From positions 1-39,264 of the forward strand of contig JADFMM010000022.1 of the NCBI GenBank assembly GCA_022563885.1: DNA of 39,264 bases, written 5' to 3'. Below are positions 405 through 23,492 of this stretch, one piece after another; position 1 is the first letter of the stretch, and every line of letters begins with the position of its first letter. This stretch comes from Planctomycetota bacterium. Its GTDB lineage: Bacteria; Planctomycetota; Phycisphaerae; Sedimentisphaerales; Anaerobacaceae. The notes under the pieces are model-generated. The model was not told the origin of the DNA. It did no database searches and was given only the letters and a program-made list of their open reading frames with translations. A program made the translations under genes and the position numbers.

Positions 405-2561
405 TCAGTACCCCATCATCATCTCGCCGTAGAGTCCTCCGCGATCTCCGCTACCACCACGGCCCGTGCGACCGCGTTTAGCCGGTGACGTCCCAAAGCC
501 TCTAAAGTCCTCGCGGGGTTCACGCTCCAGAAGCTTGATTCGTCTGTAGCTCGAAGCGATATCGTCGGTCCAGCTGGCAGAAGCGATGGGAGCACGCTCA
601 ATGAGAACACCATCAGTGGTGTAGAGCATGTCATGAGATATCTGAGCCCGAAGGTGGGCACCCTGGGTCCATCCGTCGACGCGAGCGGCTCCAACCAGAA
701 CGGCTCCCGTCGAGTAGTCAATGGTCTGAGGTTCGAGATTGAGGCCAAAGGGGTTTTCATACATCTGCGCTTCCATTCGCATCATCCTCGCCCTGGCCGG
801 GTCCATTCCCCTTACCAGCGGGTCCTCTTCCTCCTCAACTTCCATCTCACGGCCAATCCTCTCGCCGGGCTTCACCGAGAAAGTTTCCATGTTCCAGTAG
901 CCCATGTCAAACTTTGCCACCTCCACTGTGACCTGATCTGTGGCAGCCTTGTAAGCCTTGGCGAAGAAGCGGAGTCGATACGGCACGTAGACCCGACTCG
1001 TTTTATCGGAGAAGGGGCTCCAGAGGATGACATCGTCGGCTCGGGCAATGTCGGCGTCACGGACATTACCTGTCCCGGCCACCGGATTGAGGACGCCGAT
1101 GCGAACCCGATACCGATAGGTACGGCCTGGCTCCAGGCGATCATCATGGGCCCAGAACGTCACCTCGTCGATGTCCGAGAATTCCTTGAACGGTGACAGC
1201 ATCAGTTCATCCAACTTCGCATAGACATCGTCCACGGTGGGTTGGTTTCGCCGCGCGGTACGGCCGGGTGTTTCACCCATCATCTCATAGTACAATTCAC
1301 TCTCGCCACGACCCCCTCGTCCTGATCGGCTCCCCCCGCGGCTGCGCGGCTGTCCCGTCCCTCCTCCAGGCTCGAAGGTTGCGTTGCCACTCCTACTGCG
1401 ACTTCGCGTTCGTCTGGTGCCCCCCTCGGCGCCGCCATACATGCCCCCCAAATCGGCCCCTCCACCACGCCCGCCTGCCATCATTCCTCCTTGACCTCCC
1501 ATTCCTACCATTCCTCCCTGCGCTCGACGTTGTTCACGAATATTGCTGCGCTCGCTCGTATGCGATTTCTTTTCGGCTCTGCGCTCCTCCCGTTTCTCGT
1601 AAGCGATTTCCTTTTTTCGCGTGTCCAGAAACTCGTCGTGTAGTGAGGGCGGAAACCAATCCTCGTGGGCCGACGCGATGTCATAGGCGGGAGGTTGCAA
1701 CAGGGCGGTCCGTATCTCCTCGTCCTTCAGCTCCAGGGCCCTGATGCGAATGCCCCCCGGCGGCAAATCCTCCGCCTTGGTGATGACGTGCATGAGCTCG
1801 TCGCGGTATTCGATGGCCAAGCGGGGCACATCCGTCCATGGACCCCAGGCACCGTCCTCACCCTGCTTTTGTCGCTGTAGATTGACAGTGGCAAACACGG
1901 GTTCGGCCAACATCTCATCGCGCCACGGCTCGGGGAGGTCTTCCCCTGCAAAACTGTCATAGAATCGATCGCGGAGGAGACTGACATTGAACGTCCCCTG
2001 GACCGTCACCAGATCCAAATCGTTGGGTTCATGCCTACCGTTCTCATAAGTGTTTTCATCGCTCAACTCCTCCACGGGAAAATAGGCTGCCGCGCGAATG
2101 TGCCCAACCAGAATATCTGACACGTCGTCGATGACGGGCAAGGCGTATTCCCGTCTCTCCAGCGCCTCCCCAGATCCATGGCGGGGCAGAGGAGGATAAA
2201 AGGCGGAACTCACATGCTGCAACGGTCCCGCAAAGAGGCCCAGGAAACCCTCCTGCAAATCACCGGTAATGCCTTCTCTGACGGGGTCATCCGGGCCCAC
2301 CGGTTCGTCCCAGGGTCTGACATGGGCACTGGTGCCATCCGCGGGTCCGGCAAGCCGGTTCTTGACCGGAATGGCAAACTCCACAAGATAGTCATCGATG
2401 GCCTTGGGCGAAAAGGTCTTGTTGTCGAATTCCACCACGTTCGGACTGAGCAGGACGCGGATCACAATCAGCCACAGACCGAGCAGGCCCGCCACAGCCA
2501 AAACGATCTTTTCGACGTGCGTTTCGAAAAAATGACCCAGTTTTTCTAACAAATTTCCCAT
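405..2561 (-). CDS. Single-pass envelope protein with RGG/RS-like low-complexity linker (pilus-platform operon)
   Basis: I do not recognise a named family. The 718-residue protein has one membrane segment near residues 18-36, so most of it should lie outside the cytoplasm. A globular part follows to about 300, then a charged helical stretch (about 310-345), then a low-complexity region (about 346-435) rich in GGM, RGG, RSRSRS and MYGG motifs. After that comes a second globular part that begins with a fibronectin-like stretch (LEPGRTYRYRVRIG). The tail is again Gly/Arg-rich and ends in GEMMMGY. It is the last gene of a three-gene operon after the PilM-PilN fusion and a PilO-like protein, 31 bases downstream of the latter. 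By position it could play a PilP-like or accessory role, which is inference. The ATG start is followed at once by the membrane helix. Confidence 0.75.
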   Translation of the reverse strand: MGNLLEKLGHFFETHVEKIVLAVAGLLGLWLIVIRVLLSPNVVEFDNKTFSPKAIDDYLVEFAIPVKNRLAGPADGTSAHVRPWDEPVGPDDPVREGITGDLQEGFLGLFAGPLQHVSSAFYPPLPRHGSGEALERREYALPVIDDVSDILVGHIRAAAYFPVEELSDENTYENGRHEPNDLDLVTVQGTFNVSLLRDRFYDSFAGEDLPEPWRDEMLAEPVFATVNLQRQKQGEDGAWGPWTDVPRLAIEYRDELMHVITKAEDLPPGGIRIRALELKDEEIRTALLQPPAYDIASAHEDWFPPSLHDEFLDTRKKEIAYEKREERRAEKKSHTSERSNIREQRRAQGGMVGMGGQGGMMAGGRGGGADLGGMYGGAEGGTRRTRSRSRSGNATFEPGGGTGQPRSRGGSRSGRGGRGESELYYEMMGETPGRTARRNQPTVDDVYAKLDELMLSPFKEFSDIDEVTFWAHDDRLEPGRTYRYRVRIGVLNPVAGTGNVRDADIARADDVILWSPFSDKTSRVYVPYRLRFFAKAYKAATDQVTVEVAKFDMGYWNMETFSVKPGERIGREMEVEEEEDPLVRGMDPARARMMRMEAQMYENPFGLNLEPQTIDYSTGAVLVGAARVDGWTQGAHLRAQISHDMLYTTDGVLIERAPIASASWTDDIASSYRRIKLLEREPREDFRGFGTSPAKRGRTGRGGSGDRGGLYGEMMMGY

Positions 2562-2592
2562 TTCTCAACCCTGAATTCTAAACTCAGCCATC

Positions 2593-4002
2593 CTAATAAC
2601 CCGCTTCCTCGTCCGCAAAATACGCCTTGACGACCGCGGGATAGATCGCCTCATATCCCTTCTTATCGAGAAGATACTCACAGATCAGATCCAACTCGAC
2701 CACGGCATCTTCACCATAGCGATACAGATTATGCCTGCCATTGCGATGGACAACCTTCATGATCTTGCTCTCGAGAATCGTTATTTGATTGTGCTTGAGG
2801 ACTTGCTCAGCCCCCTGCCCATCGTATCCATAGAAGCGATGCTCTTTGGCTGTACACAGTTCCTTCATGAAACTTACGACATAATCGTTCCTCACGACCA
2901 CAGACAGATTAAAGTGAACGATATCGATGGCTTCGTCGCCAAACCTGTTTGTGCAGGGTGTCGTCATGGCGTCTTTCTTGGCCATCACGTATTTGGGAAG
3001 GCTCGCTTCACTGTTCGAACCCGATCGGCGTTGGGACCGTGCGCCTCCGCCTCCGCCGCCATAGGTCTCCTCGTATCCGCCACCATAACCACCGCCATAT
3101 CCGCCGCCATAACCGCCGCCGTATCCGCCGCCATACATGCCCATGCCGGCGCTTTTCTTCTGGAAGGAGATGCTGGTGATACGCTTGACCGGAGCGGTGA
3201 GGACCGTCGTTGAGGCCTGATTGCAGGCCCTAACAGTGGTGAACACATCCTCGATAATCCAATACCCAAGCTGCCAATACCAACAGTCCTCCACGGCATA
3301 GCTCGTGTCACCGTCGAAGGTGTATTCCAGCCAGAAATCGTACCCGGCGATGTCCTCAAAGCTGACATAGATACTCGAGGACTGAGCCTTCTGCATGCAG
3401 ATCGCATCCTCAATCTCGTTCCAGTAGTTGGTTGCCGCCGTCGGGTATCCCTGCTCCATACCCCCATAGCCGCCATACAAGTCTTCCATCATCATCTCTT
3501 CACGGCCGGACTGGCGCCCCCGCCCCCCTCCCCGTCCTCCTTTTTCACCGAGTTCCGCATCGGTCGGGCACTCCGTGGCATTGGCAAATTCGACCATGGC
3601 ATCCACACCCTCGGTGAAATTCCCTCCGAATTGCTCGAAAATAAGAGAGGAAGTATCTCGGGGTTCGGGAAAGATGTTGTAGCTGAGCAAGGCGCGCCGG
3701 CCGCACTGTTGGCTCAAATCCACGACGGCGTTGGCGTCGTCTACATAGCCTTGCTGAGAATCCCGCACAACTTCGATCGTGGCCGTGGAGACAGCGCTGC
3801 TCTGCAACCCTCTCAGTTCATTGGCCATGCTCAATGATTCGGATTGAATCCTCTTCTTGAGATTGCCACTGAGCAACTCGGTAGGGATAAAGAGGAGTCC
3901 CGCCACCAGGGCCAGGCAGATCGGCGCCAGCAGGGCCACATTGTTTCTGAGAAAACTCAGCTTCCCTAACAACGCCGATAGATCGGGCTTCTTAATGTCC
4001 AT
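2593..4002 (-). CDS. PilO/Amuc_1100-position envelope protein with YGGG repeats
   Basis: The 469-residue protein starts with a short cytoplasmic stretch and a membrane helix (about 21-40). A Gln/Ser-rich, probably helical segment follows, then alternating globular and low-complexity parts. This architecture and its place directly after a PilM-PilN gene match PilO or the Amuc_1100-type pilus protein; sequence similarity alone would not let me name it. Low-complexity stretches sit at about 154-187 (GGRGGG, EEMMMEDLYGG) and 284-320 (five YGGG units, then EETYGGGGGG). The C-terminal part (about 340-469) looks folded and ends in EEAGY. It lies 57 bases after the pilM-type gene and 31 before the next, so co-transcription is likely. 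No strong Shine-Dalgarno is seen before its ATG. Confidence 0.75.
   Translation of the reverse strand: MDIKKPDLSALLGKLSFLRNNVALLAPICLALVAGLLFIPTELLSGNLKKRIQSESLSMANELRGLQSSAVSTATIEVVRDSQQGYVDDANAVVDLSQQCGRRALLSYNIFPEPRDTSSLIFEQFGGNFTEGVDAMVEFANATECPTDAELGEKGGRGGGRGRQSGREEMMMEDLYGGYGGMEQGYPTAATNYWNEIEDAICMQKAQSSSIYVSFEDIAGYDFWLEYTFDGDTSYAVEDCWYWQLGYWIIEDVFTTVRACNQASTTVLTAPVKRITSISFQKKSAGMGMYGGGYGGGYGGGYGGGYGGGYEETYGGGGGGARSQRRSGSNSEASLPKYVMAKKDAMTTPCTNRFGDEAIDIVHFNLSVVVRNDYVVSFMKELCTAKEHRFYGYDGQGAEQVLKHNQITILESKIMKVVHRNGRHNLYRYGEDAVVELDLICEYLLDKKGYEAIYPAVVKAYFADEEAGY
3074..3137. repeat. Five tandem 12-bp units encoding YGGG
   Basis: On the plus strand the region alternates CCGCCATAACCG and CCGCCATATCCG-type units, about five in a row. 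In the minus-strand gene they encode (G)YGGG repeated five times. Third-position changes between units show the repeat is not newly formed. Confidence 0.85.
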
Positions 4003-4059
4003 AATCGCTTACCACTACTAAAGAGTGTCTTGTTCCTGTTGGTAGTCACCGTCAGCCCA

Positions 4060-6246
4060 TCAATAGTTCATCATCATCATGCCGGCCATGGGGTCTTCAA
4101 TGACGGGCGCTTCGTTCCATGCGAGCTTGAACTTCAAGATGAACCAGGAGTCATTCTTGACCTTCACGACATCGCCTCGACGGTTGGTCTGGGGCTTGCC
4201 CCGATCATCCAGTTTGTCGACCGGGCTGATGACCTCTTGAGTCATAGGGTCCACCAACACCATGTCCTCCTGTTGCACGTAACCGAAGTTCGCCATTCCC
4301 TCCTTTTCCTCTGGCACACCGATGCCATAGGGCACCCTCACGTCTGTTATGCTCGGATCAACAAATCCCTTGTCGAGTTGAAAATGGGTGATCACGCCCT
4401 TCTGGTAGAGACTGAAACGAGCGTCGTTGGGATCCCCCCCGTCCAAATCCTGTAAGCGGGTGACAAACCCCCATCTCTCAGGGCGGTTTTCCACGCCGCT
4501 TGGATCGAGCAGGGATCCAATATCCATGTAGGGACTGTAGCCCTCGATGGTCACCAAGAAGCCGGGGACGGTCGGCGGAGCTTCTTCGCGCTCCGTCCCG
4601 TAGTCCAAGCCATACTGCATCTCATACTCCATCATCTGCATTTGCATCGCAATCTCCTCATCCGAAATGTCCATGCCATCATCCGCCATGCCCGTCTGAC
4701 CAAACATCGCAGTCGTCAGATCGGCGGCAAAGGACACGGCCATTGAAGTCACGAAGAGTTGCTTTCGCTCTTTCCTGGGAACCTGCTTGACGGCGTCGAC
4801 ATCGCCTGCTGCGAAGGCTGCATACAGGGCCTCTTGAGCGGGGTTGTTGGCAGGGCCGGGCAGGGCGGCGAGCACTGCCTCATGGACCTGGGCAATGGCA
4901 TCGCGGTATCGAAATCGGGCAAACATCTCGGTCACTCTCTCCTCGTGCGACGCGAGACCGTCCTTGGTCTCATCGATCGTCGACTGCACGTCTCGAGCCT
5001 GGCTAATCGTCGAGGCGATTTGGCGACGTAGATCTCCCTGTTGGTCATAGTTCACCTTGTCGAGTACCTGCCGGCCCAGCGCCATAAGCGATACGAGCAG
5101 TAGGAAGCAGGCAGCGACCATGAAGAGCCTAATCTTCATGGCCCACGCCATACTGCGGACGACACTCTTGGGTAGGAGGTTGGTCTCTATTCTGGCCAAG
5201 CCCAATCCTTGGACCCCCAAACCATAGACCACGCCGAACTGGGAGACGCTGTCATGGAACTTGGCCGCAGACACCCCCGGACCCAAGCGGAGTTGCTTGA
5301 ACATTTCGGGCCGCTCGATGGGAACCTGTAGCGTCTGCTGGAGATACTTCAGCAAGCCACGGAGTCTCGTCCCGCCGCCCATGGCCACGATGCGGGAGAA
5401 CTGGGCATTGGCGTTGGCGCTGGTATAGAATCCCAAGGATTTCTGAACCTCGCCGGCCAGCTCCGTAAACACGGGCCGCATGGCCTGAAAGATTTGCCGT
5501 GCGTACTTACTCACGGCCGCCGTCCGCTTGAGCTTTTCTGCCTTCTCAAAATTTATCTTGAAGGCATCGGAGATCGCCTGCGTGAAGGCATTGCCCCCCA
5601 CGAGGATACACCGCTGCCAGACCGCGGAGCCCGTGCAAACGACTAGATCCGTTATTTCGGCGCCAATGTTGAGGACAACCACCGGCCTGTCTTCCGACTT
5701 TAGGAGGCTGGGCCGGTCATGAAGCAGATAGTTGTACAGCGCCATCGGGGCCATCTGCACGTAGGCGACGGGCAAGTCCTCCCGATTGAAGTGCTCGAGT
5801 TCCGCATTGATGATTTCATTCTTGATGGCAAAAAGCCCGACTCGCTTTTCCGGGCTGTCCTCCGGTGTCATCAACTGCCAATCCCATTGGACCTCATTCA
5901 TGTCAAAGGGAATCTGTTGGGCGGCCTCAAACCCAACGATCTCCGGGATCTTTTTGACCTCCACCGGTGGCAAGGTGACAAATCGGGCGAAACTGTTTTG
6001 GCTCGACACGGAAATGATGACGTCGTCTACGGCAATGTCATGCCTTTCCACCAGCTTCCTCAGGCTAAGAGCAATGAGTTCCTCACGCTCCGAGGGACTT
6101 ACTCCCTTGCCCGACAGCACTTTCGAGTGCTGAATCGTATCAAAGGCGCCCACCTCCACACTATCGCCCACAAGGGTCAAATAGAGGGCCTTCAAGGAGC
6201 TGTTGCCGATATCAACAGCCCACACTGCATCAGACACTGATGCCAT
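4060..6246 (-). CDS. pilM: PilM-PilN fusion, type IV pilus-like inner-membrane platform protein
   Basis: Residues 1-350 are a PilM/FtsA-like actin-fold ATPase: phosphate-1 loop VDIGNSSLK (about 12-20), phosphate-2 loop NIGAEITDL (about 193-201) and an adenosine-site GGGTRLRGL (about 290-298). Then comes NLLPKSVVR, the usual N-terminal signature of PilN (which normally binds PilM through it), followed by a membrane helix (about 371-391) and a coiled-coil-like periplasmic stretch. So PilM and PilN are joined in one 728-residue chain; separate PilM is normally about 350. The periplasmic part is longer than a usual PilN, contains a Met-rich acidic patch (EEIAMQMQMMEYEMQYG) and ends in AGMMMMNY. 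I chose the ATG at 6246 rather than the upstream one at 6297 because GGGAGG (6253-6258) stands six bases before it and it directly precedes the phosphate-1 region. First gene of its operon. Confidence 0.88.
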   Translation of the reverse strand: MASVSDAVWAVDIGNSSLKALYLTLVGDSVEVGAFDTIQHSKVLSGKGVSPSEREELIALSLRKLVERHDIAVDDVIISVSSQNSFARFVTLPPVEVKKIPEIVGFEAAQQIPFDMNEVQWDWQLMTPEDSPEKRVGLFAIKNEIINAELEHFNREDLPVAYVQMAPMALYNYLLHDRPSLLKSEDRPVVVLNIGAEITDLVVCTGSAVWQRCILVGGNAFTQAISDAFKINFEKAEKLKRTAAVSKYARQIFQAMRPVFTELAGEVQKSLGFYTSANANAQFSRIVAMGGGTRLRGLLKYLQQTLQVPIERPEMFKQLRLGPGVSAAKFHDSVSQFGVVYGLGVQGLGLARIETNLLPKSVVRSMAWAMKIRLFMVAACFLLLVSLMALGRQVLDKVNYDQQGDLRRQIASTISQARDVQSTIDETKDGLASHEERVTEMFARFRYRDAIAQVHEAVLAALPGPANNPAQEALYAAFAAGDVDAVKQVPRKERKQLFVTSMAVSFAADLTTAMFGQTGMADDGMDISDEEIAMQMQMMEYEMQYGLDYGTEREEAPPTVPGFLVTIEGYSPYMDIGSLLDPSGVENRPERWGFVTRLQDLDGGDPNDARFSLYQKGVITHFQLDKGFVDPSITDVRVPYGIGVPEEKEGMANFGYVQQEDMVLVDPMTQEVISPVDKLDDRGKPQTNRRGDVVKVKNDSWFILKFKLAWNEAPVIEDPMAGMMMMNY

Positions 6247-6258: not shown

Positions 6259-6646
6259 GCCATGTAGAGTTGACGAATGCTTAGCGGCCGTGTACAACTA
6301 CATCACAATACAAGGACGGATTGTAACACATTATGCCCGCGGTTTCTACGGCGACCTCCTAGCTGCTAAACCAACTATTCTGAAAGCCAATACAGTAGGG
6401 ACGACACGCCCGAATCTCAGTCCCCTTGGGCCTCTTTGTTCCCAGAATGTAAACACCATGCCCCATCTGAAAGACGCTTGTTCCGATCAGAGATCATTCC
6501 ATTAGAGCAGAAAGAGGGGACAGAATCAAGTCTGGCGCCAATATGACTGACTCCCTAGGACGGCCGGCGCCGGCCGTCCTAGGGGGTCAGTTGACCAGCA
6601 GGTTTCCACGTCCGGCCATCACCCAGCAGACTCCGGAATCACAAGA
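6259..6646. other. Divergent intergenic region between pilM and the Nudix gene
   Basis: About 390 bases without a credible gene. It must hold the pilM promoter (minus strand) and that of the Nudix gene (plus strand), but I found no clear -35/-10 pair for either. It contains GGGGACAGAATC (6516-6527), a string that in my experience often flanks REP-associated transposon remnants, and a long palindrome at 6546-6591, described separately. Confidence 0.6.
6546..6591. repeat. 46-base near-perfect palindrome
   Basis: The core 6553-6584 is a perfect 32-base palindrome whose left half is CCCTAGGACGGCCGGC. Outside it, one T/G mispair is followed by a further matched arm of ACTGAC and GTCAGT, giving 46 bases with a single mismatched pair. 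There is no loop-forming spacer and no T-tract, so it is not a standard terminator. It could be a cruciform-forming repeat, a REP-like unit or a dimeric binding site. Confidence 0.92.
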
Positions 6647-19906: not shown

Positions 19907-21391
19907 CTAGGACTTCGCACTCTTTAGCGTGAAGGTCTTGTAGTGGAAGGTCAGCGTAAACTCGAACTTCTTGGTCTTCTTATTGAAAGACGAGCGTGTC
20001 AGAATGACCTTGTCTATCCCCCTTTGACCCAGGAGCCCCTCTTGAAAGGTGTGTAGCTGCTTCTCCTGGTCGGCTCGGCCCTCTACCTTGATGGCCTGCC
20101 CTTCCTTGAAGTGCAAGCTGTCCAGGACGATACCGGACCCCTCCGCCGCGCCCATCTCCTGGAGCAAGGCCGGAACATTCAGACGCCGCCGCGCGATCTC
20201 TTTCTGGTGGGCCTTCTCTTGCAGTATCTGCCTCAGATCCGCGCCCTGGGTCAATTCCTCGAGCCGTTGGGCCTTGACGACATCGATCCCATAGAGCCCC
20301 GCCAACATGATCGCCATGGCGAGCAGCGCCACCACGGCCGCCACGCCTGTCGTGATGGATCGTCGCCTTTTGGCGTCCTGGGCGGGCGCGGCACAGTACC
20401 GATCGAATAGCCGCAGGCGTTGGGTGTCGCTGTCCAGGCAGGCGAGTGCCGCACCCAGGGCCAGACGGTACTCAAAGATCAGGTCGAGGGTGTCCGATTC
20501 GGAGTGCGTGACGAGGCGCTCCTGATCCGGCTGCAAGGGCGCCACGGACAGGCCTTGGGCATCCAGGGACTCAGCCAGCAGATTCATCTGCTCAGGGGTA
20601 TCCGTCGAGACATAAACCGGACGGGCACCGGCCTCGGAACCGTATCCGCTCAGGATTTCCCGGAGGTCTTGGACAAACAACTCGAATGGACTCAGCGCCT
20701 CTGGGGACTGCCCCTCCTGTTCCTGCTCGTCCCTAGGCCTCAGTGACGGCTCCACATCGGCCCACCCCACATCCATCACCGTGGCGTGAACAAGACTGCC
20801 CTCAGCCACGTTGCAGATCAGGGTCCGCCGCGATGTCACATCGATCAATACCGGATCCATGGCCTGGCGGGGACAGAGGTGTTTCCACAGCGCCACAAGC
20901 GCCTCGGCTTCCAATACCATCTCCGTTGGATTGATCTGATGGAGTTGATCGGCGACGGATTGGAGCAATCCCTTGCGGGCCGCCGCCAAGATCACCGAAC
21001 ACTGACCGGCCGTCCCCGGCCGGGTGCGCCAGGCGATGTCCATTTGTTCGATGGGAAGCGGCAATCGTGTCTCGGCCTGCATCCGGACCATGGCCTCCGT
21101 CTCTTGAGAGCCCACGGCAGGAATCGTGAACTCCTGGAAGGCCACACCGATCGATTCGACGCACAGCGCCACGGCTCTTTTGGAGGGCCGTTTCTTCGGG
21201 ATGCCCCCGGTCGTGACCAACTCGCATTGCCGTGCGAAGGACAGCCAGGTGTCCGTCGGATCGCCGCTCTTGGCCCACACCATTTCGATGCCTCCCGCTT
21301 TGGCGCGGACTTCGACCGCCTGTAAGGAGGTCTCGGACTTGGCCAGGACCACCACGGTTTCCCCCATCCTGAGTTCTGAGACTCGACTCAT
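19907..21391 (-). CDS. gspL: Type II secretion inner-membrane platform protein GspL
   Basis: The first 340 residues resemble the PilM/GspL actin-like cytoplasmic fold (AVALCVESIG, then AAARKGLLQSVADQL). A basic KRRRS leads into one membrane helix (about 346-368), then a coiled coil and a small periplasmic ferredoxin-like domain. GspL ties the GspE ATPase to the membrane. I chose the start at 21391, giving 494 residues, because its ATG overlaps the gspK stop as TGATG, a classic coupled junction; a frame opening at 21415 would lie inside gspK. Confidence 0.85.
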   Translation of the reverse strand: MSRVSELRMGETVVVLAKSETSLQAVEVRAKAGGIEMVWAKSGDPTDTWLSFARQCELVTTGGIPKKRPSKRAVALCVESIGVAFQEFTIPAVGSQETEAMVRMQAETRLPLPIEQMDIAWRTRPGTAGQCSVILAAARKGLLQSVADQLHQINPTEMVLEAEALVALWKHLCPRQAMDPVLIDVTSRRTLICNVAEGSLVHATVMDVGWADVEPSLRPRDEQEQEGQSPEALSPFELFVQDLREILSGYGSEAGARPVYVSTDTPEQMNLLAESLDAQGLSVAPLQPDQERLVTHSESDTLDLIFEYRLALGAALACLDSDTQRLRLFDRYCAAPAQDAKRRRSITTGVAAVVALLAMAIMLAGLYGIDVVKAQRLEELTQGADLRQILQEKAHQKEIARRRLNVPALLQEMGAAEGSGIVLDSLHFKEGQAIKVEGRADQEKQLHTFQEGLLGQRGIDKVILTRSSFNKKTKKFEFTLTFHYKTFTLKSAKS

Positions 21392-22677
21392 CAGAAACGT
21401 ACTCCTTGATACCAATACCGTATTGCGATGGGATTGGCACTACGATCAACCACGGCCTCGACAACCTCCGTCGCACCGCTGATGCCGGTTCGATCCGCAG
21501 TGGCGACGCTGTAGATGCAAAAGAGATCGGATCGCACCGTCACCCGATCGACGATCTTCTTGAATTGGTTCCGGCTAAGCGACTCGACCTGCAGTAGGTC
21601 TGCCACGTTCGCGATGCCGCCGACGAAGCCCTCTCGGTAGTCGATGATGCTGAGTGCCAGTTCGTCGTTGCCCTGCGGCGACTCCAAGAGCGCCATCAGT
21701 ACCTCCTTGGGGGCCGTATTGACGTTGACGCGAACCGGGGCATTGTTGTCATCAAAAATGGTGATCGAATCCACAATGTTGCGAAACGTGTCCTGGTCCA
21801 GTGGCGTCGGATCATCGGGATCGCCGCCCTGGGACTGTTTGTCGGGGCCCAGGATGTCTGCGCTGCTCTCAAATCCCGAGTTTCTATTGTCGACGATCCA
21901 CTGGGCCTGACCGGAGGTCAGACTGAGGCTGCGTTCCAATTCCCCTTGATCCGCGCTGTTGATGTTGATGCGGGGTTGACCGGCACTATTGGTATTCTTC
22001 TTCTCGCCGTAGCAGCTCAGAAAGGCGATCCATCCCTGGTCGAGTTCACTGTCACCATTGTCCATGGGCAGGCTCTCATCGCCATCCCGTTCATTCAGAT
22101 CGAGCACGCCGTTGAAGTTGGTGTCTTCACCGTAGAGCAGATCTTCAGTGACACCCTTGACCAGGAGGAGTTCGCGGATGGTCCGGAAGGGGCCGTTGCG
22201 ACACTCATAGGGAAAGGTCAGATTGCGATAGTAACCGGTCTCGACGCCCTGGTCAGAGGGCCGACTGTTCTCATCCCGCCAATCCAGAATCGCGTCGGCA
22301 ATGGGCTCCTCCATGTCAGGCAGGGCCATGAGCTGCTGCTTAGTGGCCCCATTGATGTCGAGCTTGCCCGACTCATCGAGAACACGGACCGTAAAATGAC
22401 AAGCGCTGAGGCTGATGTCGGTAAAATCTTCGTCGTTGTCACTCCAGAGATCGGACAGACTATCGGTGCTCGTCACGTCCTCTTTGAGTATCGCGATGGC
22501 CGTCTCGACACCGGCTCGCGCCCCCCATTGGCACCGGAGAGATTGAGCCTGATAGTGTGCCATTTTGGTGTGCAGACGACTCGTCCTGCCAACAGTGGCG
22601 GCCATGATCATGAGCAGGACAACCACCCACAAGACCGTCACCAGCACCAAACCTCTTTGTTTCTTCTCTCGCGACAT
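21391..22677 (-). CDS. gspK: Minor pseudopilin GspK
   Basis: A 428-residue protein with a short leader ending at Gly9 and a hydrophobic helix starting LVLVTVLWVVVLLM. It lacks the Glu at position 5 of the mature chain, as GspK usually does. The large globular domain contains the helix-hairpin-helix-like segments typical of GspK (KLDINGATKQQLMALPDM, and RININSADQGELERSL). GspK caps the pseudopilus with GspI and GspJ. The start is two bases past the gspJ stop; the stop overlaps gspL. Confidence 0.88.
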   Translation of the reverse strand: MSREKKQRGLVLVTVLWVVVLLMIMAATVGRTSRLHTKMAHYQAQSLRCQWGARAGVETAIAILKEDVTSTDSLSDLWSDNDEDFTDISLSACHFTVRVLDESGKLDINGATKQQLMALPDMEEPIADAILDWRDENSRPSDQGVETGYYRNLTFPYECRNGPFRTIRELLLVKGVTEDLLYGEDTNFNGVLDLNERDGDESLPMDNGDSELDQGWIAFLSCYGEKKNTNSAGQPRININSADQGELERSLSLTSGQAQWIVDNRNSGFESSADILGPDKQSQGGDPDDPTPLDQDTFRNIVDSITIFDDNNAPVRVNVNTAPKEVLMALLESPQGNDELALSIIDYREGFVGGIANVADLLQVESLSRNQFKKIVDRVTVRSDLFCIYSVATADRTGISGATEVVEAVVDRSANPIAIRYWYQGVRF

Positions 22678-22679
22678 CG

Positions 22680-23492
22680 CTACCTCGCCCCTCCGCGCTC
22701 ATTCCGAGAAGCAGCGTTGTTCGAGGCCCCGCCTCGATTCCCGCCACCACCCCCTGCAGAGTTGTTCGAGGCGCCGCCTCGATTCCCGCCGCCACCCCCT
22801 CCAGACCCGCTGTCCATCTGACCCGTCGCACGCTTCAAGGTGACGAGTACCGTTTCGAGCAGCGGCGGTTTTTCCGGGTCGACGGCTAGGCCCAGCGTCA
22901 CTTCCACCAGTTCCGGCAGCGTCTGGCTGTCTTGGGCCCAGTGTTCCTGCCACTCCTGACCATCGTGAAAGCGGGCCTTGAACAGGCCGATGCCTTCGGC
23001 CATGACAGACAAGATACCGCCACGTTCACCGTCACGATCACCCCGGCCCTGGCCCTCAGGATGGGGATTGGGCTGATGACGTCTCATGAGGGCCGAGCGT
23101 CGCTCGGTCTGCTGCAAGAAATACTCCACTTCACACACGTCTCCCTCTGGCTCCGCGGGCCGGGCCTTGGTTCGCGAGAGGCAGTAAAAGGTCAGAAAGA
23201 GTTGATCCTCCGAACCGGAAGGCTCGAGCGTGGCCACAAACTTCTGGCGTCTGGCCTCCTTATCCCGATAGACGTTTTTCAGGTCCCGCCGTAGACTCGC
23301 CGCCGCGAAACGCAACTCCGCCGCGCGATCGGAATGCGTCTGGATCCGGGTACTGGTGGTGGACATCGTCTTCAGACTGCTCATGGCCACGACCGTCACG
23401 AAGGATGCGATGATGAGCGTCACCAGGACCTCGACCAGAGTAAATCCCCGATCTTCCACCGGCCATATCCGATCATTCTTTCCTGGCCTCAC
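22680..23492 (-). CDS. gspJ: Minor pseudopilin GspJ with Gly/Asn-rich repeat tail
   Basis: A 270-residue pseudopilin. The prepilin site is at Gly16 followed by FTLVEVLVTLIIA, with Glu at position 5. The body matches GspJ in size and in its early MSTTSTRIQTHSDRAAELR region. The last 40 residues or so are unusual: two copies of GGGGGNRGGASNN and a GGAR end, encoded by a 45-base direct repeat. The start codon is GTG, overlapping the gspI stop (GTGA). Confidence 0.85.
   Translation of the reverse strand: MRPGKNDRIWPVEDRGFTLVEVLVTLIIASFVTVVAMSSLKTMSTTSTRIQTHSDRAAELRFAAASLRRDLKNVYRDKEARRQKFVATLEPSGSEDQLFLTFYCLSRTKARPAEPEGDVCEVEYFLQQTERRSALMRRHQPNPHPEGQGRGDRDGERGGILSVMAEGIGLFKARFHDGQEWQEHWAQDSQTLPELVEVTLGLAVDPEKPPLLETVLVTLKRATGQMDSGSGGGGGGNRGGASNNSAGGGGGNRGGASNNAASRNERGGAR
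22717..22806. repeat. Two-copy 45-base direct repeat in gspJ
   Basis: Copies span 22717-22761 and 22762-22806 and differ at four of 45 positions. In gspJ they encode the GGGGGNRGGASNN units of the C-terminal tail. Confidence 0.9.

Follow-up and report, generated by a model that had tools for sequence, protein, structure and literature searches.

The three genes at 405-6246 of the DNA analysed here form a real and well-conserved system. They encode a PilM-like protein and two further proteins, ORF2 and ORF3, and it is likely that these constitute the inner-membrane portion of a machine that spans the envelope and resembles a type IV pilus, the Planctomycetota counterpart of Amuc_1101-1100-1099 (MUL2) of Akkermansia. 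The outer half of this machine would be an Amuc_1098-type TPR-secretin, whose gene is separated from the operon in the order to which the window belongs, and the low-complexity tracts of the proteins would be disordered linkers.

Organization of the operon

The window, by which we mean the whole stretch analysed, is the entire contig C317 (39264 bases) of a 6.5 Mb draft genome. The genes for the PilM-like protein, ORF2 and ORF3 are co-directional on the minus strand, with intergenic gaps of 57 and 31 bases. PilM starts at ATG 6246, where the sequence-only reading, an earlier reading of this DNA made from its letters, had placed it; a TTG at 6297 was rejected as spurious because relatives begin MAS.SDAVWA. 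Base 1 of the window is the first base of C317 and ORF3 ends 404 bases from it, so relatives were used to judge the region 3' of ORF3. A promoter and terminator scan gave matches at chance level only. The features are as follows.

4060-6246, minus strand: PilM-like protein, 728 aa; actin-like PilM domain, one TM helix and a predicted periplasmic C-terminal part (Pfam, NCBIfam, TM scan, alignment)
4570-4698 (approximate), minus strand: acidic, Met-rich variable insert of the predicted periplasmic part of PilM, AMQMQMMEYEMQYG; gap-rich columns of alignment A3
4060-4086, minus strand: PilM C-terminal tail AGMMMMNY (sequence)
2593-4002, minus strand: ORF2, 469 aa; N-terminal TM helix, long coiled coil and ferredoxin-like core, Amuc_1100/PilO-like (AlphaFold2, Foldseek, re-alignment)
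3439-3543, minus strand: ORF2 low-complexity insert 1, GRGGGRGRQSGREEMMMEDLYGGYGGM; disordered, pLDDT <50 in parts of residues 164-183, gap-rich columns
3013-3150, minus strand: ORF2 low-complexity insert 2, MYGGGYGGG...; 12/24-bp tandem repeat, AlphaFold2 model, gap-rich columns
405-2561, minus strand: ORF3, 718 aa; N-terminal TM helix, beta-sandwich domains, disordered linker and short disordered tail (AlphaFold2, pLDDT 80)
1263-1517, minus strand: ORF3 low-complexity linker with GGM, RGG and RSRSRS; pLDDT <50 over residues 349-433, gap-rich columns
405-458, minus strand: ORF3 C-terminal disordered tail ending GEMMMGY; residues 702-718, pLDDT <50
1-404, no strand: stretch between ORF3 and the contig end; no additional member of the unit seen here, and no conserved same-strand follower in 62 relatives

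The three proteins

The PilM-like protein contains the actin-like domain (Pfam PilM_2, 6e-34) and scores 136 bits against TIGR01175 (1e-39; cut-off 133). Its best NCBIfam match is Amuc_1101_fam (NF045709), at E 3e-69 and 234 bits, a score that lies below the equivalog cut-off of 650. The TM scan gave a single strong hydrophobic segment at residues 372-390, and therefore the actin-like domain is predicted to be cytoplasmic and the long part that follows periplasmic; this latter part is conserved among relatives (alignment A3). A long PilM at E 1e-60 or better is found in 83 of the 148 genomes sampled across Planctomycetota.

ORF2 and ORF3 have hydrophobic segments at residues 22-40 and 19-37 respectively (TM scan), and each is probably anchored in the membrane by its N-terminus. 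For ORF2 an AlphaFold2 model built from 69 sequences has a pLDDT of 82, and its credible top Foldseek matches are Amuc_1100 and PilO, with weak E-values (0.02-0.05). Structural re-alignment with Amuc_1100 gives Z scores of 12.4-12.8 over about 165 residues, the best being that with 6lad_D (Z 12.8, rmsd 2.8 A, 165 residues, 7% identity); PilO (2rjz) is next at Z 7.6, and all other structures stand at 5.5 or less except for the architectural pilus model 3jc8. As modelled, then, the second gene of the operon has the Amuc_1100 fold, and the analogy with Amuc_1100 drawn in the sequence-only reading gains a structural match. That reading had also looked to profile searches to place the proteins, which gave matches for PilM (PilM_2, and Amuc_1101_fam below its cut-off) but not for ORF2 and ORF3; neither window protein matches any Pfam or NCBIfam family, their relatives give scattered single-member weak matches, and a PDB sequence search with profiles returned noise only.

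The ORF3 model has weak matches to FnIII/Ig-like structures, but with Z scores of up to 6.8 these are within the range typical of common arrangements, and we infer no homology from them. ORF3 gives no match to PilP. A homologue of ORF3 is the third gene in 62/62 complete loci, and we regard it as the positional counterpart of Amuc_1099, the agreement being one of place in the operon only.

Conservation of the three-gene unit

The order PilM-ORF2-ORF3 is intact in 20/20 extended loci and in all 62 of the further loci where a contig holds all three genes; the globular three-gene unit is the conserved part of the operon. The sole neighbour that many loci share is MtaB-like, upstream and divergent (47/62 loci; product named from sequence). 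This gene, together with the downstream SAHH, glycosidase and others, was set aside as a part of the unit, these being housekeeping or variable genes with no link to it. Neither a conserved same-strand fourth gene nor a recurrent linked pilin or prepilin, ATPase (PilB), PilC or PilQ was found in the 20 extended and 62 further loci of the window's order, and no linked MUL2A/Amuc_1102 pilin-like gene was seen at loci of that order. One relative is an exception in having a PilQ-type secretin near the operon. The secretin beside the operon in one genome (G005, locus L053) was rejected as a partner, its relatives sitting mostly with a short PilM elsewhere.

The comparison of neighbourhoods that the sequence-only reading had proposed thus shows a unit that is kept without a recurrent pilin/PilB/PilQ set, and the claim of a specialised platform distinct from an ordinary pilus locus holds, no pilin, ATPase or PilC being linked in the relatives examined. 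The same is true of the remark that no other pilus gene adjoins the operon in the window, which beyond ORF3, where the contig ends, was judged from relatives. Many homologues are without the low-complexity tails.

A TPR-secretin as probable outer-membrane partner

In deep planctomycete lineages the gene directly after ORF3 encodes a secretin of 912-1218 aa, most of these having TPR and STN domains. For one such ORF3-adjoining secretin the best NCBIfam match is Amuc_1098_fam (3e-36), far below the curated cut-off, as the PilM score is likewise far below that of the curated Amuc_1101 family. Using a model without most of the secretin domain, we found the TPR-secretin in 144 of 148 Planctomycetota genomes; in the genomes with both PilM and TPR-secretin among the matches listed, the two lie within 12 kb and on the same strand in 39/54 (36 downstream). 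The genomes without a TPR-secretin (G158, G176, G186 and G195) belong to one family (f57), are 2.0-2.5 Mb in size and are also without a long PilM, and could possibly serve as natural controls. Some lineages have a second, shorter secretin-like gene directly after the TPR-secretin (L186:14532-16820, L190:14680-17187).

Within the window's order no TPR-secretin was found next to the platform genes; it is present but unlinked, lying for example 1.6 Mb away in one genome (G044). In the source genome a secretin piece runs to the end of contig C175 and a complementary piece starts at base 2 of contig C323. These complementary pieces meet contig ends and both break inside a Gly-rich linker; they are most simply one TPR-secretin gene cut by an assembly break. 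In a tree the unlinked secretins of the window's order fall into one clade with other Phycisphaerae secretins, among them three at a distance of 3.4-3.8 kb from PilM; this grouping of unlinked and PilM-linked secretins, given with no branch supports, carries moderate weight. The operon and the TPR-secretin of the source genome are probably paired, on grounds of orthology rather than linkage.

The TPR-secretin piece on C323 is followed after 89 bases by a gene (L196:1263-10769) whose product, of 3168 aa, combines subtilase and right-handed beta-helix repeats. A large protein follows the TPR-secretin on the same strand in 12/18 loci of the window's order, and all five of those examined have beta-helix and/or subtilase domains. 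This protein is a possible cargo.

Low-complexity tracts

The Met-, Gly- and Arg-rich features quoted in the sequence-only reading are all present in the three protein sequences. ORF2 holds EEMMMEDLYGGYGG, and its 12/24-bp tandem array at 3072-3135 encodes GGGYGGGY; ORF3 contains RGG and RSRSRS and has the C-terminus LYGEMMMGY, and that of PilM is AGMMMMNY. In a set of 189 ORFs, each at least 200 aa long and taken from 341 kb of the genome, the two most G/R/Y/M-rich 40-residue segments are those of ORF2 and ORF3, and MMM is present in only five, of which PilM, ORF2 and ORF3 are three. The chance of MMM in these three would be about 1e-5 if they were preselected, and the genes were not picked in advance. 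Since both the top G/R/Y/M segments and three of the five MMM ORFs fall in the operon, the tracts are non-random for the source genome.

The 62 homologous operons give a different picture of their constancy. Many are without tracts, tract strength varies, and a single operon, from the same genus as the window, has MMM in each of its three proteins. MMM is present somewhere in 26 of the 62, because of which a mild functional preference for Met-rich stretches may be entertained. The tracts coincide with gap-rich alignment columns in the three proteins and with pLDDT <50 segments in ORF2 and ORF3, and we read them as fast-evolving disordered linkers and tails, variable and the least conserved part of the operon.

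Two other proteins of the source genome are similar in composition. A secretin-bearing ORF of 858 aa (C433, L222:16128-18704) contains more RGG than any other (6) and a segment of 55% Gly, so Gly/Arg-rich inserts are a recurring trait of the envelope-machine proteins encoded here. In the Gsp cluster of the window, the ORF at 22680-23492 has a prepilin-like N-terminus, a long Gly-rich stretch and four RGG.

Alternative explanations

One rival explanation, which takes up the suggestion of the sequence-only reading that the partners interact through shared low-complexity tails, makes the Met/Gly/Arg-rich elements the functional heart of the system. The tracts are indeed extreme for the source genome, ORF2 and ORF3 tract strengths are correlated among relatives (rho 0.51), the presence of MMM in 26/62 operons points the same way, and the split TPR-secretin likewise has a Gly-rich linker. 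However, tract strength also follows local G+C across the 62 operons (rho 0.64 for ORF2 and 0.51 for ORF3), a dependence that can explain the correlation between the two proteins, and the tracts lie in gap-rich, low-pLDDT segments, one of them being a short tandem repeat. With tracts that are variable, track G+C and are missing in many homologues (the all-three MMM pattern in 1/62), a role as shared interaction elements is most improbable. The case carries a general caution, that Gly/Met-rich tracts that look like a signature can be linkers driven by G+C.

The PilM_2 domain and the PilO-like fold would also suit a redundant alignment subcomplex (PilMNO) of an ordinary type IV pilus, using a PilB/PilC/PilQ set encoded elsewhere. 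The genome offers 18 T2SSE-type ATPase matches and several secretins for such a role, but none of the 18 is next to the operon, and an ordinary PilC-M-N-O-P/prepilin cluster with short standard proteins (named from sequence) is present on contig C199, so the platform of the window is an additional one. The long periplasmic extension of PilM, the missing PilP match of ORF3 and the type of secretin linked elsewhere, which is the TPR type and not the short PilQ type that accompanies short PilM genes, also make this explanation unlikely. Counting 13 secretin matches as well as the ATPases, the source genome is unusually rich in type II/IV-pilus-like machines. One of these is the type II (Gsp) cluster at about 15.3-27.9 kb, on the same contig as the operon, for which the operon might be an extra inner-membrane platform; the sequence-only reading had suggested that the Gsp machine 9 kb away is perhaps borrowed. 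The cluster encodes a GspL-like protein of its own (19907-21415) that gives PilM/PilN matches, in addition to GspD, E, F and K, which makes such a partnership unnecessary, and the extended loci show no recurrent Gsp cluster in the vicinity of the operon. Because in other classes of the phylum the operon is directly followed by a different, dedicated secretin and the Gsp cluster has a GspL-like protein already, the partner of the operon is probably the TPR-secretin, and a Gsp platform is very unlikely.

A predicted trans-envelope machine

The reading of the operon and TPR-secretin as a trans-envelope machine draws on homologies, gene order, the modelled ORF2 fold and the presence of the separated secretin. 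The four proteins would assemble together, with PilM binding cytosolic factors and its periplasmic part perhaps binding ORF2, as PilN and PilO do; ORF3 may bridge towards the N-domains of the secretin, the place of PilP/GspC in known machines, and the TPR-secretin would form the outer-membrane ring. Such a machine may anchor a fibre or a macromolecule-capture complex, or take up or export macromolecules across the envelope.

The crateriform structures of planctomycetes connect the outer and cytoplasmic membranes and have fibres that bind dextran, with an uptake mechanism reported to be unclear (PMC5394234). The machine of the operon is predicted to have the same topology, with an outer-membrane complex connected to the cytoplasmic membrane, although the link is hypothetical; in the papers searched we found none that assigns proteins to these structures. 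In Planctopirus limnophila, a species with deletion tools available, cells without three pilQ-like genes were viable (PMC11958385). A machine that is phylum-wide is a natural candidate for the crateriform structures. More specifically, and as a rather doubtful speculation, the PilM-PilN-like protein, the Amuc_1100-like protein, the anchored beta-sandwich protein and the TPR-secretin could be the 'press-stud' crateriform complex that joins the membranes and carries the dextran-binding fibres, the giant subtilase/beta-helix protein behind the TPR-secretin being surface cargo in the window's order. In any event a small testable gene set can now be named for the unexplained envelope connections and macromolecule uptake of planctomycetes.

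Comparison with known systems

The gene order reported for Akkermansia muciniphila is Amuc_1101-1100-1099-1098, in which Amuc_1098 combines TPR and secretin (PMC4960237; MUL2, PMC13174399), and the MUL2 locus functions in mucin acquisition, probably via attachment (PMC13174399). The operon resembles MUL2/Amuc_1098-1102 in its PilM-like protein, whose best family match is Amuc_1101_fam, its Amuc_1100-fold protein and a third anchored protein, and many planctomycetes outside the window's order share a gene order that ends in the TPR-secretin. It differs in that PilM and the secretin score below both curated family cut-offs, no Amuc_1102/MUL2A gene is seen with the operon, the secretin is unlinked in the window's order, and the planctomycete proteins have long low-complexity inserts. 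The type IVa PilM/PilN/PilO subcomplex shares the actin-like domain of PilM and the PilO-like core of ORF2 (Z 7.6 to 2rjz), whereas the PilM-like protein of the window includes a TM helix and a long domain predicted to be periplasmic, and the operon is without a PilP match or linked prepilin, PilB and PilC, a normal set being present elsewhere in the genome. GspL/GspM are similar in that a PilM-type cytoplasmic domain is joined to a periplasmic part, but the Gsp cluster of the window already has a GspL-like protein of its own.

The sequence-only reading had put the operon forward as its best candidate for an undescribed system, a term that goes too far given the homology of the operon to the Akkermansia MUL2/Amuc_1098-1101 machine. 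The type of machine used by Akkermansia for mucin uptake thereby gains another phylum within the PVC group, and the Planctomycetota show it with the secretin both linked and unlinked. The best reading of the operon described here is as an unlinked, new form of the Akkermansia MUL2/Amuc_1098-type platform.
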